A stretch of DNA of 64,000 bases from Amycolatopsis sp. QT-25 (GTDB lineage Bacteria; Actinomycetota; Actinomycetes; Mycobacteriales; Pseudonocardiaceae). The position numbers and the translations under genes are program-made. The stretch lies in assembly GCF_029369745.1 (NCBI RefSeq), contig NZ_CP120210.1, forward strand, positions 7,564,001 to 7,628,000. The letters are read 5' to 3'. The notes under the pieces are model-generated. The model ran no database searches. It saw only the letters and a program-made list of their open reading frames with translations, and had not been told where the DNA came from. Of this stretch, positions 26,818 to 34,169 are shown piece by piece (position 1 is the first letter of the stretch; each line of letters opens with the position of its first letter).

Positions 26818-27723
26818 TCAGGGCACGCGGCCCACGACCCGCGCGTACATCCGGCCCGGATTGGCGCCTTCGTCGAGATAGCCGGGCAGCGGCGGCAGGT
26901 CGCGCGCGAACACGGCCAGCCGCCCGAACAGCTCGTCCGCGTCGGGCGGACGCCGTTCCGGGTCCTTCTCCAGGAGATCCGCGAGCAGCACCTTGAGTCC
27001 AACGGGGATGCCGTCCACTTCGGCGGGGCTCTCCTTGACCTGCTTCTCGAAGACCGCGTACGCCGTCGGGCCGGTGAAGAGCTGCCTGCCGGTCAGCATC
27101 TCGTGCAGGACGCAGCCCAGCGCGTACAGATCGCTGCGCGGACCGGCGATCCCGCGCTGGATCTGCTCGGGCGCCATGTACGCGGGAGTGCCCAGGATCT
27201 GCCCGGCGCGGGTGAACTGGGCGACGTCGGTCTCGCGCAGCATCGCGAGCCCGAAGTCGAGCACCTTCACGCTGCCGTCGGGGCACAACATCAGGTTGGT
27301 GGGCTTGAGATCGCGATGGCAGATGGACAACGCGTGCGCGGCGGACAGCACGGCGCACGCCTGCGCCGCGATCGCGGCCGCCCACGGCACCGGCAGCGGC
27401 CCGTGTTCGGCGGCGAGATCGGCGACGGTCACCCCCTCGATGAACTGCATGACCTGGTACAGCCGCTCGTCGTAGGTGCCGAAGTCGTAGAGCGTCGGCG
27501 CGCCCGCGTGTTCCAGGGTCGCGAGGATCCGCGCCTCGCGGATGAACCGCTGCTCGAGTTCGGCGTCCGGACCGCCGGGAAGCCCGAGGAACTTCACCGC
27601 CACGCGGCGGCCGAGATGCCGGTCGTGGCCCGCGTAGACCGCGCCCATCCCACCCCGGCCGAGCGGCAGCTCGTCGAGTTCGTAGCGATCGGCGATCAGC
27701 AACCTCGTCCCCTCCACCACCAC
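26818..27723 (-). CDS. Cytosolic serine/threonine protein kinase
   Basis: 301 residues from a run of GTG codons at 27718-27723. Hanks-type kinase: glycine loop LGRGGMGAVYAG, VAVKFL lysine, catalytic HRDLKPTNLML, DFGLAML and the APE-like AYMAPEQI, then subdomain XI-like SAEVDGIP region. It ends soon after the kinase lobe and lacks a membrane helix or PASTA repeats, unlike PknB. It lies 29 bp downstream of a DNA-methyltransferase-like gene on the same strand; a PP2C phosphatase is divergent 77 bp beyond that gene, so kinase and phosphatase may act on the same target. Confidence 0.93.
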   Translation of the reverse strand: MVVEGTRLLIADRYELDELPLGRGGMGAVYAGHDRHLGRRVAVKFLGLPGGPDAELEQRFIREARILATLEHAGAPTLYDFGTYDERLYQVMQFIEGVTVADLAAEHGPLPVPWAAAIAAQACAVLSAAHALSICHRDLKPTNLMLCPDGSVKVLDFGLAMLRETDVAQFTRAGQILGTPAYMAPEQIQRGIAGPRSDLYALGCVLHEMLTGRQLFTGPTAYAVFEKQVKESPAEVDGIPVGLKVLLADLLEKDPERRPPDADELFGRLAVFARDLPPLPGYLDEGANPGRMYARVVGRVP

Positions 27724-27752
27724 CCTCGACGGAGAAGCTTCGCTTCCGGCAA

Positions 27753-29408
27753 CTATCCGTTCCCCGGCCTCAGTTGCCCTTCCGTCAGCCCGGCCAAGCC
27801 TAGCCGCACCAGCTCCAGGCCCGATTCCGCCGCCTCACGCAGGGCGGCCTCGAAGGCGGCGAGCCGGGTGAACGCCGCCCCGTAGGCCCGCTGTGTCTCG
27901 ATGGGCAGGCGCGGGATCCGGGTGCGCCTGAGGTCGATCCTCGTCGACGACGTCGGCGCGACCTGCCCGGCCGCGCGCAGGCAACCGGCGAGGAACGCGG
28001 CGTCCAGCCGTTCGGGATCGGTGCGGTACCTCGACATCGTCGGCTCGACCACTACCGTCTCTCCATTGTGGACATATGCGGGCGCGGCGGGCGACGCGAC
28101 GACATCCCCCTCCTCCACCGATTCCGGCACGGTGAGCACCCCGGACTTCAGCAGCTCGCCGATCGTGGTGAACGTCGGCTTCTCGTCGGAAATCCTCAGC
28201 GACGGCGGTTCCGGCCGGATCCCGTCGAACTGCCTTCGGGCTTCCAGGAATGCCTCGCCCACGTGTTCGTCCCGCGCCTGATGCCGCCCCGGGGAAAGGT
28301 CGATCTCCTCGTCGAGCAGGTCGATGATCCGGACCGCCCCCGGCACCTCGGCGCCGCGCAGATGCGCCCACCACTGTTCCTCCACGGTGGACGGATCGGC
28401 CAGCAGGAGCAGCCGGGACGGCGGCCGCTCGCCCGGTTCCGGGCGCCGCAACAGCCAGAGATCCGCTCCGCCGACGGTCACCACCGCGCACAAAGCCCCG
28501 GCCCGCAGCAGGTTCCCGCGGATCCGCCGACCGGTGCGGCGTCCGGCGGCGGCGGGCGGCATGCGGATCACGACCAGCCCGCCGGGCTTCACATGCGCGA
28601 GACAGTGCTGCACCCACGCCAGTTCCGGTTCGCCGCGCGGCGGCTGGCCGTACTCCCAGCGCGGGTCGCCGACGAGGTCGTCGTAGCCCCATTCGCGTTC
28701 GTTGAACGGCGGATCGCAGACGACGGCGTCCGCGAGAACCCCTTCGTAGGAGTCCATCGACAGCGCGTCGGCGCCGTACATCTCCATGTCGGCCCCCGCG
28801 AGCAGCAGCCGGTGCGCGGCGATGCACGAGGTCGCCGGATCGTCGACCTGCCCGAGCAGCCGGGTCCCGCCGGAGGCGAGCAGCAGCGTCCCGAGTCCGC
28901 ACGCGGGGTCGAGCACGACGCCGGGTTCGGGACCGATGAGGCGGGCCATCAGCGTGGCCACCGGTTCCGGGGTGACGGACAACTGCCGCGAGTGCGCCTC
29001 GACGTAGCGCTCACACAGGAACTCGTAGGCCTCGCGCACGCCTCGCTCGTCGGCGAAGCGGTCCAGCAGGCCAAGCAGTTCGGCGTCGTCGTAACGGGCC
29101 GAAAAGGTCCACTCGCCTCGCCGGGTCAGGTACGACCCCACCCGGCCGACCCGCAGGCCCAGTGACAGGTCGTCCCCGAGGTTGCGCAGCCGCTGCCAGA
29201 CCCGGTCGCCCAGCGAGATCTCGACGGGTTTGCCGCGCTCACGCAGCCAGTGTTCGACGTGGACCAGCGAAAAGAGGGGGCTCGACGCCGTCCCGCCGAC
29301 GGGCGGCGGAAAATCGCCGTAACGTCGACGCCAGTTGCTCACCGCGGCGCGGCCGACGCCGGCGATCCGCGCGATGTCCGCCGCATTGACGGTGGCTTGC
29401 TCCTCCAT
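27753..29408 (-). CDS. Solitary N6-adenine DNA methyltransferase-like protein with N-terminal HTH
   Basis: 551 residues from ATG 29406-29408. Residues 6-60 form an HTH (VNAADIARIAGVGRAAVSNWRRRYGDFP) with a wing, as in orphan type I HsdM-like proteins of actinobacteria. A class-I SAM fold follows: VVLDPACGLGTLLLASGG and the target-binding motif IV as DPPFNERE (DPPF in place of NPPF), with a helical C-terminal part. There is no specificity subunit or nuclease gene nearby, so it is either an orphan methylase or a DNA-binding regulator. It is flanked by a kinase and a divergent PP2C phosphatase. Confidence 0.85.
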   Translation of the reverse strand: MEEQATVNAADIARIAGVGRAAVSNWRRRYGDFPPPVGGTASSPLFSLVHVEHWLRERGKPVEISLGDRVWQRLRNLGDDLSLGLRVGRVGSYLTRRGEWTFSARYDDAELLGLLDRFADERGVREAYEFLCERYVEAHSRQLSVTPEPVATLMARLIGPEPGVVLDPACGLGTLLLASGGTRLLGQVDDPATSCIAAHRLLLAGADMEMYGADALSMDSYEGVLADAVVCDPPFNEREWGYDDLVGDPRWEYGQPPRGEPELAWVQHCLAHVKPGGLVVIRMPPAAAGRRTGRRIRGNLLRAGALCAVVTVGGADLWLLRRPEPGERPPSRLLLLADPSTVEEQWWAHLRGAEVPGAVRIIDLLDEEIDLSPGRHQARDEHVGEAFLEARRQFDGIRPEPPSLRISDEKPTFTTIGELLKSGVLTVPESVEEGDVVASPAAPAYVHNGETVVVEPTMSRYRTDPERLDAAFLAGCLRAAGQVAPTSSTRIDLRRTRIPRLPIETQRAYGAAFTRLAAFEAALREAAESGLELVRLGLAGLTEGQLRPGNG

Positions 29409-29449
29409 CGACGTATCGTAACCGACAGGTGAGCATTCCAACCCCTCGT

Positions 29450-29468
29450 TTGTGAACTCAGTACACAA
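29450..29468. promoter_or_regulatory. 19-bp near-perfect palindrome in methylase/PP2C promoter region
   Basis: TTGTGAACTCAGTACACAA is symmetrical except at its central base and one symmetric pair (TTGTG-N-ACT-N-AGT-N-CACAA). It lies centrally in the 77-bp divergent gap, 42 bp from the methylase start and 17 bp from the phosphatase start, so it is well placed to be an operator for both. Confidence 0.6.
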
Positions 29469-29485
29469 GTGCTTTACTGGGGTCC

Positions 29486-30241
29486 ATGAGGTACACCCTT
29501 CGGTACGCCGCCGGTTCGGACGTCGGACGGCGCCGCCAGGTCAACCAGGATTCGGTCCACGCCAGCGCCAGGATGCTGGCCGTCGCCGACGGCATCGGCG
29601 GCCAGCCCCACGGCGAGGTGGCCAGCGCCGAGGCGATCGGTGTCCTGTCCCGGCTCGACGCGGACCTCCGCGGTTTCGACCTCGCGGAAGTCGATCTGGC
29701 CGAGGTGCTTTCCGGCGGCCTGCGCACCATCGACGAACGGCTCGCCGCGACGGCCGAGCAGGAGCCGGAGACGCGGGGCATGGGCACCACCTTGACGGCG
29801 TTGCTGTTCGACGGCCGGCACTTCACGGCCGCCCACATCGGCGATTCCAAGGGATACCTCCTCCGCGGAGGAGTCCTGCAGCGCTTCACCCGCGACCACA
29901 CCCTCGCGCAAGCCCTCGCGGACGACGGCCGAATCGACCCGTCGGAGGTCGAGGGACACCCTCGCGGCTCGCTCCTGATGAAGGCACTCCTGAGCACCGG
30001 GAGCGGCGAAGCGGACATCTGGGCCTTCGACGCCGCCCCCGGAGACCGACTTCTCCTGTGCTCCGACGGATTGACGGCAACGGTTGTCGAAACCGTTATC
30101 AAGGACGTCCTGGGCGCCTTCCGAGCCCCCGCCGAGACCGTCCCGAAGCTGATCGACCTGGCCAACGAAGGCGGCGGTCCGGACAACATCACCTGCGTCG
30201 TCGCCGACGTCGTCGACGCCACCGCACCCGCGCCCGCCTGA
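29486..30241 (+). CDS. PP2C family protein phosphatase
   Basis: 251 residues from ATG 29486. All PP2C motifs are present in order: GRRRQVNQDSVH, LAVADGIGGQPHGEVAS, MGTTLTALLF, AHIGDSKGYLLR, LLCSDGLT and GGGPDNITCVV, giving the Asp residues of the dinuclear Mn/Mg centre. No membrane segment is seen. It probably opposes the Ser/Thr kinase encoded 1.8 kb away on the other strand. It ends in an Ala/Pro tail, 72 bp before the tRNA gene. Confidence 0.95.
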   Translation: MRYTLRYAAGSDVGRRRQVNQDSVHASARMLAVADGIGGQPHGEVASAEAIGVLSRLDADLRGFDLAEVDLAEVLSGGLRTIDERLAATAEQEPETRGMGTTLTALLFDGRHFTAAHIGDSKGYLLRGGVLQRFTRDHTLAQALADDGRIDPSEVEGHPRGSLLMKALLSTGSGEADIWAFDAAPGDRLLLCSDGLTATVVETVIKDVLGAFRAPAETVPKLIDLANEGGGPDNITCVVADVVDATAPAPA

Positions 30242-30313: not shown

Positions 30314-30398
30314 GGAGGATTGGCCGAGCGGCCTAAGGCGCACGCTTGGAAAGCGTGTTGGGTTCACGCCCTCGCAGGTTCGAATCCTGTATCCTCCG
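30314..30398 (+). tRNA. tRNA-Ser (anticodon GGA)
   Basis: Acceptor arms GGAGGAT (30314-30320) and ATCCTCC (30391-30397) pair perfectly; the D-arm contains GCCGAGCGGCCTAAGGC, the anticodon loop is TTGGAAA (anticodon GGA, reads UCC/UCU), a long variable arm is present as expected for Ser, and the T-loop is TTCGAAT. Discriminator G; CCA is not encoded. Confidence 0.97.
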
Positions 30399-30405
30399 CC
30401 GTCAG

Positions 30406-30538: not shown

Positions 30539-30799
30539 ATGGCCGGAGTCGAAGAGATCCGCGCTGGTATCGCGCTCGCGAACGAGAAGGCATCCGCGAG
30601 CATCGCCGCACTTCAGCAGGCCGCGCAGTCTCTCGAAGAAGCACAGCTTTCGCTTTCCCAGGCCACCCAGGGCAGCACCCAGCACGAGGTGAGCCAGGCG
30701 CACGGGCTTCTCGCCGAGGCCCTGCAGGGCATCACCGGTATGCAGAGCACCATCCAGGCGGGCATCTCGTCGGCCGAGTCCTACTCGACCCGCCTCTAG
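30539..30799 (+). CDS. Small helical protein A of FtsK-like cassette
   Basis: 86 residues from ATG 30539, with AAGGAG 5 bp or more upstream. Predicted almost wholly alpha-helical and charged, with an Ala/Gln/Glu heptad-like pattern (IAALQQAAQSLEEAQLSLSQ). It lacks WxG, cysteines, signal or membrane segments. It ends with SYSTRL, the same pattern as the end of the next protein (GYQSRL). Length and helicity recall ESX/WXG100 partners, but no homology is claimed. Only 3 bp separate it from the next gene. Function unknown. Confidence 0.85.
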   Translation: MAGVEEIRAGIALANEKASASIAALQQAAQSLEEAQLSLSQATQGSTQHEVSQAHGLLAEALQGITGMQSTIQAGISSAESYSTRL

Positions 30800-30802
30800 C
30801 GC

Positions 30803-31048
30803 ATGCACCTCGAGGAACTGCATCAGCTGCTGACGGCCGTCCGATCCGGCCTCGTCGACGGACGTGCCCATGCCGAGCGGGCCAGGAGCCTGCTCGAGGA
30901 ATCCCGGCGCGCCCTGGTGGAACCACAGGCCCAAGCCGTTCCTTGGGTGCCGTCGCAGCTGGCGCAGGCCGACGAGGGGATCGAAAACCTCCTGACGCGC
31001 CTTTCCGCCGCTGACGACCTGGTCAGCGGTTACCAATCACGCCTCTGA
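30803..31048 (+). CDS. Small helical protein B of FtsK-like cassette
   Basis: 81 residues from ATG 30803, 3 bp after protein A, all-helical with a Pro break in the middle (WVPSQ). Its first half is Leu/Arg/Glu-rich (LLTAVRSGLVDGRAHAERAR), and the end is LVSGYQSRL, closely matching the SYSTRL end of protein A. It is 15 bp upstream of the FtsK-like gene. Possibly forms a heterodimer with A; this is inference. Confidence 0.83.
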   Translation: MHLEELHQLLTAVRSGLVDGRAHAERARSLLEESRRALVEPQAQAVPWVPSQLAQADEGIENLLTRLSAADDLVSGYQSRL

Positions 31049-31063
31049 GATCGGCGAGCCGGT

Positions 31064-33805
31064 ATGGGCAGCAAAGCGAGTGAACAGCGCAATCGTGTCG
31101 TTACGGCGCTGGAGCGGGTCCGGCACCAGATCGGGCTCGTCCTCGGCGCCGCCGCCGGCGCCCGCCAGTCCGCCGAGGCGGAACTGGCCAAACTGCAACT
31201 GGAACAGCACATAGTCCGGGTGGGGATGAACAACTCCACCTCGGAGCAGTACGCCGAATGGTCGCGGCACCCCGCCGCGAAGGAGGTGTTCGGCCTGCTC
31301 GGCAATGTGCGTGGCCAGTTCTACGCGGATTGGGAAGCGGGCCCGAACGAGTTGCGCGAACTCGTCGCGCACAACGCGCCGGGTCCCGCGAGCCAGCCGC
31401 CGGGCAACTGGCTCGGCCGCGTCGGCGGGAATCCCGGCATCACCACGCCGGGTCTGTGGCGGGTCGGCTCGGCGACCGTGCCGGGCAGGGACGTCCCCCG
31501 CACCTTCGACGTCGCGGTGCCCCTGCTCGACGAGTCGCATCTGTCCATCACCTCGGCGCCGAAGACCCGGGCCGCGGTGGACGGCATCGTGCAGAACCTG
31601 CTGATGCGCATCCTGAGCACGTTCGAACCCGGCGCCGTGCGCGTCCATCTGTGGGACGTCGGGCAGCTGACCGCGATCCTGCCCGACCTGTACCCGCTGA
31701 GCCGCACGAGCGCGCTCACCCTGTACGACCCCGGACGGCTCGAAGACCTCCTCGACGAGCTGGCCGGGCACATCCGTCGCATCCACGCGACCGGGATGCA
31801 GGCGGGGCACACGTCGCTGCGGGAGATCCGGCGGGCGAGCGGGCAGCGCGTCGAGCCCTTCCGCGTCGCGGTGCTCTACGGCAACGGCGAAACCCTCGAG
31901 CCGGAGCGCGCCCGCGAGCTGAAACGAGTCGCCACCGGGGCACTCGCGGCCGGGATCTGCCTGATTTTGATCGACGTGCCGACCATGCTGTCGACGTCGG
32001 TCGAATCGCTGAGCCTGCACGACGACCGGCACGCGATGAGCAGCATGACCGGCCGCGACCTGATCGTCGACCTCGACCCGCCGATGCCGTCCGGGCAGGT
32101 CATCCGCGCCGCCGGGCGGATCGCCGAGGCGCTCATCGCCAAACAGGGCGGGCCCCGCGCGTTCGCCGATCTGCTGCCCACCGAACTGGGCAAGGAGAGT
32201 TCGGCACGGGAACTGCGGGCGCCGGTCGGGTTCTTCGAGGGCGAACCGGTGGAGGTCGTCATCGGCGACGCCAGCCCGCACGTCCTCATCGGCGGGCCGA
32301 GCGGTTCGGGGAAGACGAACTTCCTGTACTCGCTGCTCGGCAGTCTCGCGGCACGGTACTCGCCGGACGAACTGGCGCTGTACCTGCTGGACTTCAAGGA
32401 AGGCGTGTCGTTCGCCGGGCTCGCGCCGGGGCGGCGGGACGCCAGCTGGCTGCCGCACGCCAAACTCATCGGGGTCAACGTCAACACCGACCGCGAGTTC
32501 GGCCTGGCGCTGCTGCGGTTCCTCGCCGACGAGCTGCGGCGCCGGTCCGCCGCGGCGAAACTGCACGAAGTCACCAACCTCGCGGACCTGCGCGAACAGG
32601 ACCCCGGCGGGCATTGGCCGCGGATCGTCGCGGTGATCGACGAATTCCAGTACCTTTTCGCCGGCCGCGACGGCGTGACGGCGACCGCGACCCAGCTGCT
32701 GGAGGACATCGCGCGGCGAGGCCGGTCGCAGGGAATCCACCTGGTGCTGGCGAGTCAGGACGTCGCCGGGATCGAGGCTTTCTGGGGCAAACCGGCGGTG
32801 TTCGAGCAGTGCACGCTGCGGATCGCGATGCCGAAGGCGCGGCGCGTGCTGTCCGAGACCAACAACGCGGCGGTCTCGGCGCCGAAGTGGCACGCGGTGA
32901 TCAACCACGATTCCGGTGTGGCGCACGGGAACCAGCTCGCCCACGTACCGGACGCGAGCAGCAAGGACGTCTTCAACGAACTGCAGCACCGGCTTTGGGA
33001 ACGGTACGCGGAGTCGTTCAAGCGGCCCCGGCTGTTCGACGGCGCGCATTCCCCGGTGCTGGAACAGTTCCCGGCGTTCAGCGAGCTGAAGCCGACGGAC
33101 AAGCCGCGCGCCCTGCTCGGCCAGTCGATCGACGTCGACGAGGCCCCCTGCGGGGTCGACCTGCCGAAAGCGCCGGGCCGGAACGTCGCCGTCCTGGGCG
33201 CGGCCACGGCGGAGGCACTGTCCATCATGGACTCCGCCGCTCGTTCGCTGGCTCGCCAGTATGACGGCGAGTCGGTGGAGTTCGTGCTCTCGTGCCCCAT
33301 CGAAGCCTCTGTCCCCGCGGTGAACGAACTGGCCGGGCGGTTGCGAGCGGAGGGACACAAGGCAACCCTGGTGGACGATTTGCCCGCCCGGGTAATCGAT
33401 ATCGCGGAGAATCTGTCCTCTTTGGACAAAGCGCACGTACTGTTGCTGTACGGCGTCGACGCCTCGATCCCCGCGCTGGAGGCGAAGGCGCCCGGACAGC
33501 TCAAGAGCGGTCTGGATCAGCTGCGGGTGCTGCTGAAGCAGGGCCCGACGCACGGCGTCCACACCATCGGCTGGTGGCGCAGCATCGCCCGGTTGAAGGA
33601 CACCCTCGGTTTCGCGGGCACCGACGACATCGGCACCTGGGCGGCGCTGGACGTCCAGGGCAACGAACTGTCACCGTTCGCCGCGGGACAGGTCGTGCAC
33701 TGGTCGCCGCGACCGGGCCGGGCGCTGTTCTTCGACCGCACCACCCATGGCGCGCCTGAGGTGATCATCCCGTTCCAGCGTCCGGAAGGGCTTCTCGATG
33801 GATGA
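31064..33805 (+). CDS. Soluble FtsK/EccC-like ATPase, three domains, one active
   Basis: 913 residues from ATG 31064, no membrane helices. Residues 1-50 form a coiled coil. The middle domain (about 390-600) is active: Walker A GGPSGSGKT 410-418, Walker B IVAVIDEFQYLF 521-532, and the FtsK block ARRGRSQGIHLVLASQ 550-565. A first domain (about 140-345) repeats the fold without Walker residues (ITSAPKTRAAVDG in place of the P-loop; GALAAGICLILID as the late block). A third (about 690-905) has VAVLGAATAEAL and LKQGPTHGVHTIGWW. This degenerate-active-degenerate layout resembles EccC of type VII secretion; no EccB/D/E genes are here. Role unknown. Confidence 0.9.
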   Translation: MGSKASEQRNRVVTALERVRHQIGLVLGAAAGARQSAEAELAKLQLEQHIVRVGMNNSTSEQYAEWSRHPAAKEVFGLLGNVRGQFYADWEAGPNELRELVAHNAPGPASQPPGNWLGRVGGNPGITTPGLWRVGSATVPGRDVPRTFDVAVPLLDESHLSITSAPKTRAAVDGIVQNLLMRILSTFEPGAVRVHLWDVGQLTAILPDLYPLSRTSALTLYDPGRLEDLLDELAGHIRRIHATGMQAGHTSLREIRRASGQRVEPFRVAVLYGNGETLEPERARELKRVATGALAAGICLILIDVPTMLSTSVESLSLHDDRHAMSSMTGRDLIVDLDPPMPSGQVIRAAGRIAEALIAKQGGPRAFADLLPTELGKESSARELRAPVGFFEGEPVEVVIGDASPHVLIGGPSGSGKTNFLYSLLGSLAARYSPDELALYLLDFKEGVSFAGLAPGRRDASWLPHAKLIGVNVNTDREFGLALLRFLADELRRRSAAAKLHEVTNLADLREQDPGGHWPRIVAVIDEFQYLFAGRDGVTATATQLLEDIARRGRSQGIHLVLASQDVAGIEAFWGKPAVFEQCTLRIAMPKARRVLSETNNAAVSAPKWHAVINHDSGVAHGNQLAHVPDASSKDVFNELQHRLWERYAESFKRPRLFDGAHSPVLEQFPAFSELKPTDKPRALLGQSIDVDEAPCGVDLPKAPGRNVAVLGAATAEALSIMDSAARSLARQYDGESVEFVLSCPIEASVPAVNELAGRLRAEGHKATLVDDLPARVIDIAENLSSLDKAHVLLLYGVDASIPALEAKAPGQLKSGLDQLRVLLKQGPTHGVHTIGWWRSIARLKDTLGFAGTDDIGTWAALDVQGNELSPFAAGQVVHWSPRPGRALFFDRTTHGAPEVIIPFQRPEGLLDG

Positions 33806-34169
33806 CGGCATCACCGCGGCCATGCGGTACAAGGAGATCGTCGGCCGCGCGCGCACTTCGGCGGAGAACCTGCGCAACTGGGAGATCGGCCGCGCGGACG
33901 AACTGGAGGCCCGGCTCGCCGAGGCGCACCAGACCGTCGCGGACGCCGCCGAACGCGAGCAGCGCGCCGTCGACCGGTGCACCCGCTGGTGGAAGATGGC
34001 GCAGCACAACGTCGAAGGGCTTTCGTGGCTGCCCGACGACGAGGACCCGAGGCCGGTGCCGACCGCGCGGCCCGGCTACCTGGAGAAGTACCTGGAAGAG
34101 GTCAAACCGAGCTACCAGGAACTCGTGCAGGCCGTGCTTTCGCTGGGCTGGCGCGCCAAGCGCTCCTGA
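33798..34169 (+). CDS. Helical protein C of FtsK-like cassette
   Basis: 123 residues from ATG 33798, overlapping the ATPase stop by 8 bp, so it is translationally coupled. An N-terminal helix is followed by a long coiled coil (ELEARLAEAHQTVADAAERE), a Trp pair (TRWWKMAQHNV), a Pro/Asp-rich linker and a C-terminal helix (ELVQAVLSLGWRAKRS). No recognised domain. Its stop codon lies within the first copy of a 22-bp direct repeat. Confidence 0.85.
   Translation: MDDGITAAMRYKEIVGRARTSAENLRNWEIGRADELEARLAEAHQTVADAAEREQRAVDRCTRWWKMAQHNVEGLSWLPDDEDPRPVPTARPGYLEKYLEEVKPSYQELVQAVLSLGWRAKRS

Follow-up and report, generated by a model that had tools for sequence, protein, structure and literature searches.

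EssC-like ATPases without transmembrane (TM) segments have been described in CoCoNuT operons, where the protein has an N-terminal coiled coil, three domains of which the central one alone is active and two WXG100-like partners, and where a role in secretion was inferred (Bell et al. 2024, PMC11090510). Stand-alone copies of such operons are attributed there to Anantharaman 2012 (as cited in PMC11090510). Here we analyzed a 64,000-nucleotide stretch of the Amycolatopsis sp. QT-25 genome (contig NZ_CP120210.1, positions 7,564,001 to 7,628,000; hereafter the window, with coordinates counted from its first letter), which carries a four-gene cassette encoding two small helical proteins, A and B, an ATPase and a further helical protein, C. 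An earlier reading of the sequence, the original prediction, had called this complex undescribed, which is too strong given that CoCoNuT operons contain the same architecture. The cassette instead belongs to a known, uncharacterized family of ATPases, found here in a new setting, the core genome; what is new is the core-genome actinobacterial form, its conserved tails, and the TM helices that C counterparts of other lineages have and those of Pseudonocardiaceae lack. We assign a probability of about 0.5 to the reading that the cassette encodes a core EccC-like motor complex, independent of the type VII secretion system (T7SS), in which A and B dock through their tails on the ring and C serves as an adaptor.

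Type VII secretion is otherwise studied as a membrane machine. In the cassette a motor, its degenerate, presumed docking domain and an Esx-like pair persist without EccB/D/E and without a TM segment of their own, so that the step linking motor and hairpins could be studied in solution. A soluble relative would show how the T7SS motor was built from, or decayed into, modules, and would bear on the actual cargo of TM-less EssC-like ATPases, for which secretion of defense factors has been inferred to date.

The ATPase and its hairpin partners

The ATPase gene (31064..33805, on the forward strand like all features of the cassette) starts 15 bp after B and encodes 913 residues. Its Walker A motif GGPSGSGKT (32291..32317, residues 410-418) is the sole P-loop of the protein and is accompanied by Walker B at residues 524-528 and RRGRSQGIHLVLASQ at 551-565. 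In the family alignment, the P-loop pattern was central in 49 of 51 ATPases and lay outside the center in none. Pfam recognized a central FtsK_SpoIIIE domain alone (residues 385-567, E 1.8e-21), the best partial NCBIfam matches were EccC/EssC models at scores far under their cut-offs, and the best PDB match by sequence was 4nh0, the EccC of Thermomonospora curvata.

An AlphaFold model built from 51 family sequences (pLDDT 89.2) predicts N-terminal helices (3-104) followed by three alpha/beta domains: a degenerate DUF-like domain (~131-337), an active FtsK/EccC domain (~383-600) and a degenerate domain-3-like domain (~682-903). Foldseek returned the EccC cytoplasmic domain 4nh0 as the top match of this model (E 7e-35). 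Using VIA-align, we found that the N-terminal domain (model residues 99-360) resembles the DUF domain of EccC5 (8rin; Z 15.4, 4.2 A over 223 aligned residues), that residues 361-908 resemble ATPases 2-3 of EccC/EssC (4n1a and 4lya; Z 25), and that the C-terminal domain (658-907) resembles EccC/EssC domain 3 (6j17, 6jd5 and 6tv1; Z 17.5-20.4). Based on these fold matches and the single central P-loop, the modeled ATPase consists of three FtsK-like domains, of which the middle one alone carries catalytic motifs. The original prediction had proposed exactly this: the motifs it quoted are present, and the degenerate ATPase folds it expected on both sides are seen in flanks that structurally match EccC/EssC.

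The EccC likeness that it noted is likewise real, and none of the cassette proteins of the window showed a TM segment. In the ATPase, where no TM helix was seen, the highest hydropathy peak (1.88, residues 289-307) overlaps a predicted beta-strand, and none of the 51 family ATPases showed a TM-like peak above 1.97, compared to 2.14 for a control EccC. The cassette thus shares with EccC/EssC (4nh0, 4n1a, 8rin) the domain order of DUF-like, active ATPase and degenerate domain-3-like domains as well as hairpin partners with a conserved C-terminal tail, but its ATPase is without TM helices, has a single active site where EccC/EssC have several and counts one ATPase-like domain fewer than EccC, and EccB/D/E are missing. 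The central domain scored best against EccC domain 1 in all 14 EccC proteins, whereas in a tree of central domains the cassette ATPases fell outside the EccC D1+D2 group, within which D1 and D2 cluster together; branches in this tree are long and the exact placement is unsafe. Because tree placement and scores conflict, correspondence of the central domain to EccC domain 1 is a tentative assignment.

Upstream of the ATPase lie A (30539..30799, 86 aa) and, after a 3-bp gap, B (30803..31048, 81 aa). A is predicted to form a clean two-helix hairpin (pLDDT 92; helices 2-42 and 49-85) with the turn ATQGST and the C-terminal tail YSTRL, and B is helical and ends in YQSRL. Across 29 aligned relatives of A the turn glycine G45 is invariant, and a (Y/F)xxxL tail is conserved in both proteins: position -5 is Y/F in 28/29 and position -1 is L in 27/29 of the A sequences, with 20/22 and 21/22 for B. 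Profile comparison with hhalign gave 94% for A against B, with reversed controls at 0.2-0.3%, and on these sequence grounds the two are paralogues.

The pair recalls the WXG100/ESAT-6 family, with which it shares a helical hairpin of ~85-100 aa, a turn glycine and a gene position beside an EccC-type ATPase. Unlike that family, A and B of the window have no WXG in the turn and no match to Pfam WXG100 (PF06013), and their homology to it does not rise above reversed-sequence controls: hhalign gave 5% for A against WXG100 with reversed controls at 26-28%, and although the A profile matched ESAT-6 structures (E 0.002), the reversed profile matched WXG100 chains at E 0.011. Since reversed profiles scored about as well, we do not claim homology of A and B to WXG100. 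Weak PF06013 matches occurred in 3 of 29 A relatives (best E 0.011), and a Foldseek search with the A structure returned generic hairpins of no clear family, one EsxGH chain among many. No secretion signal has been shown on A or B, and the role of small helical substrates that the original prediction suggested for them by analogy with EccC is unproven.

Distribution and known relatives

The ATPase was present in 36/36 sampled Amycolatopsis genomes, which indicates core behavior as opposed to a patchy island, and its syntenic position was unchanged among those close relatives that were examined; its closest named relatives, at 96-97% identity, are Amycolatopsis. In six close Amycolatopsis comparisons, A, B, the ATPase and C were all under purifying selection (ratio of nonsynonymous to synonymous divergence, dN/dS, <=0.21), and gene A had a dN of 0 in five of the six despite synonymous divergence of up to 0.26. 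This constraint on all four genes, together with recurrence of the operon across Pseudonocardiaceae, argues that the cassette is not a chance arrangement.

The original prediction expected the partners to co-occur with the ATPase, and they do. Within Pseudonocardiaceae, the ATPase, A and C occur as a set, which includes B where it is recognizable. A survey of 297 Actinomycetia genomes detected A in 33, every one of them ATPase-positive, and in 0/251 ATPase-negative genomes (Fisher p 1.4e-33, for species that are not independent). Thirteen ATPase-positive genomes lacked A, among them the f34 branch, which has other helical partners, and G106, in which the neighbor of the ATPase looks like a WXG100 protein.

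No EccB or EccD partner is encoded in the cassette. Compared to T7SSa, the fold is EccC-type, while the membrane-bound EccC/EssC-family ATPase with TM helices and the EccB/EccD that T7SSa requires were not found. EccB was missing from 20 of 35 ATPase-positive genomes, and EccD was likewise missing from each of the 17 tested among these, including three single-contig genomes with an A-type cassette (G156, G188, G145). These many genomes are the reason to consider the cassette independent of T7SS. The host does encode two EccB/EccD loci elsewhere in its genome, which would allow the cassette to act in trans as an accessory of the host's own T7SS with EccB/D/E; the 17 genomes without EccB and EccD make this role very improbable overall, and it is disfavored in the lineages that lack both.

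The closest described relatives of the cassette are the ATPase cassettes of CoCoNuT operons. Both have a TM-less EssC-type ATPase with N-terminal helices and three ATPase-like domains of which the center alone is active, small hairpin partners and an adjacent coiled-coil protein, and the ATPases are co-linear homologues. A Caballeronia plasmid operon carries VWA, WXG100, CARF, PP2C and kinase genes together with its ATPase, which aligns co-linearly with the window ATPase over residues 365-895 (27%, 147 bits); the host's own EccC aligns by single ATPase domains only. The window differs from the CoCoNuT form in having no VWA, CARF, McrBC or nuclease partner and no nuclease match in C, in its core chromosomal location and its presence throughout the sampled genus, and in the undemonstrated WXG100 homology of A and B. 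Its two paralogous hairpins are both without WxG, whereas in the CoCoNuT pair one lacks it. CnuB/CnuC (McrB/McrC), VWA, CARF and nuclease genes were absent among the Pfam-searched genes beside the cassette, and visual inspection of gene calls from the window and its relatives revealed none.

This homology raises the possibility of an anti-phage or stress-response module akin to the CoCoNuT/TerY-P-associated ATPase cassettes, and in part of Amycolatopsis PP2C, kinase and N6-methylase genes lie directly upstream. We consider such a role unlikely, as the ATPase is universal in the genus at one locus in close relatives, unlike a patchy island, and the upstream genes are lost in other genera while the cassette persists. 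Moreover, PADLOC matches of the ATPase were to single-domain FtsK only and there were no close phage or plasmid relatives, with matches in phage records restricted to the central FtsK region. MADS systems (mad8, mad6, mad2) resemble the locus in that the mad8 model matches the FtsK domain and that a kinase and a helix-turn-helix (HTH) methylase lie nearby in Amycolatopsis, but the match is confined to one ATPase domain, a full mad gene set is missing and the nearby genes are outside the conserved cassette.

Gene C and a possible mechanism

C (33798..34169, 123 aa, a probable coiled coil) begins within the stop region of the ATPase gene, with an 8-bp overlap; with this, the four adjacent genes, gaps of 3 and 15 bp and final overlap given in the original prediction are confirmed in coordinates and lengths. 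An overlap of this kind, of either 4 or 8 bp, recurs at 81 of 94 loci. In other lineages, 19 of the 22 C-position genes called encode one to four C-terminal TM segments, compared to 24/108 neighboring genes of similar size; of the three TM-less exceptions, one is a miscall where the ATPase is split and the other two are relatives linked to WXG100. In Pseudonocardiaceae, by comparison, 0/73 C-position genes had a TM segment. Profile comparison of the window C family with the other groups gave 0.2-16%, which does not demonstrate homology across lineages, and for this reason we call the other-lineage genes positional counterparts. Most simply, C would tether the motor to the membrane in most lineages, and in Pseudonocardiaceae the motor would be free of this tether. 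The solubility proposed in the original prediction may be a trait of this bacterial family, as C-position genes elsewhere encode one to four TM segments.

The TM-containing counterparts would also support minimal type VII-like secretion, in which the ATPase would export A and B or other clients and the membrane part would be C in most lineages and another protein in Pseudonocardiaceae. Bell et al. infer export for the CoCoNuT form (PMC11090510), and a relative on a Rhodococcus plasmid encodes, beside A, a two-part protein with a putative toxin-like C-terminal part. We regard secretion as a tentative possibility, because C of the window lineage has no TM, no conserved membrane gene was observed next to the cassette, A and B have no shown secretion signal and the C genes are not demonstrably homologous across lineages. 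Among the alternative roles, secretion stands first, defense second and DNA pumping third.

For the reading that we prefer, of a T7SS-independent motor complex, the following mechanism can be proposed. By family precedent, the ATPase would form a hexameric ring driven by its single active central domain. A and B may act as a hairpin pair in the manner of EsxA/EsxB, with their conserved (Y/F)-x-x-x-L tails seated on the degenerate C-terminal domain, much as EccC receives the EsxB tail peptide. In EccC (structure 4n1a, EccC with a signal peptide), the EsxB tail reportedly binds domain 3 and drives assembly. Docked A and B could load, assemble, activate or gate the ring, which would then thread or remodel a polypeptide. 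C would be a translationally coupled coiled-coil adaptor, whose counterpart may anchor the complex to the membrane in other lineages; in Pseudonocardiaceae, where this anchor is absent, the result would be a cytosolic machine. Genes for Hsp70, DnaJ-TPR and GrpE near some relatives fit a function in protein handling. More speculatively, and as a doubtful extension, the cassette could descend from an ancestral type VII-like translocase, a split EccC in which two distinct but coupled genes encoded the motor (the ATPase) and a membrane stalk or pore (C), an Esx-like pair took part and EccB/D/E were not needed, and from which Pseudonocardiaceae lost the membrane part to leave a core-genome cytosolic ring that remodels polypeptides.

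Several points weigh against a polypeptide-handling EccC-like complex. Docking of the A and B tails on the C-terminal domain is drawn by analogy with EccC, the likeness of A and B to WXG100 proteins is one of shape and genomic setting with no demonstrable sequence homology, and the f34 branch has the ATPase with no detectable A. In addition, the best Z-scores of the central domain were to FtsK motor domains (29), so the ATPase fold fails to separate polypeptide from DNA translocation. This match would suit a pump that moves DNA in the handling of chromosomes or plasmids, with the hairpins and coiled coil as regulators. Such a pump is less likely still than a defense role, as both degenerate flanks match EccC/EssC and not FtsK, the sequence similarity of the center is strongest to EccC domain 1, and an FtsK gamma-like DNA-reading domain was not seen in the model. 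The ATPase also lacks the N-terminal TM of FtsK DNA translocases, and its C-terminal domain matches EccC/EssC domain 3, not gamma.

Neighboring genes and distant relatives

A tRNA-Ser(GGA) gene (30314-30400) lies 138 bp upstream of the cassette. The original prediction had placed the cassette next to tRNA-Ser, which is correct for the window; the tRNA is a neighbor by synteny in just part of Pseudonocardiaceae, and we rejected a link to it. Further upstream (26818-30241), genes for a Ser/Thr kinase, a protein combining an HTH with an N6-methylase, and a PP2C phosphatase form a divergent module, in which the HTH/N6-methylase gene shows partial matches to mad1/mad2 and to type I M subunits. Many Amycolatopsis keep these genes together, and searches of other genera detected no such module close to the cassette. 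Its genes, and a nuclease gene downstream, do not travel with the cassette in Pseudonocardiaceae. We rejected the module as a part of the cassette on the basis of its loss in other genera where the cassette persists; it is possibly a separate defense module of its own.

Distant relatives vary in their small partners. In family f34 (L158-L161, L150), an A-less ATPase branch beside trxA, helical partners of 201 aa and ~130 aa replace A and B; f34 likely corresponds to Streptomycetaceae, and f32, which includes C proteins with TM segments, to Micromonosporaceae. In a separate ATPase branch, WXG100-like proteins with FQGS or SSQW turns replace A and B (L156 8191-8454, L157 4381-4647). In family f15 (L134 5470-6345, L137 8922-9998), a C-terminal extension brings the product of the B-position gene to 292-359 aa, and the enlarged protein of L134 had no Pfam match.

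The Rhodococcus relative (Rhodococcus pseudokoreensis plasmid, L223 10181-10999) encodes a 272-aa protein that adjoins an A homologue and has a helical N-terminus. This protein had no Pfam match, and its C-terminal part looks like a candidate polymorphic-toxin or autoprotease domain. The same locus is one of three at which Hsp70 and DnaJ/TPR-type genes adjoin distant cassette relatives (L223 3235-6441, which also has GrpE; L152 9930-12903; L149 9655-12425), and this chaperone-linked branch hints at protein clients.

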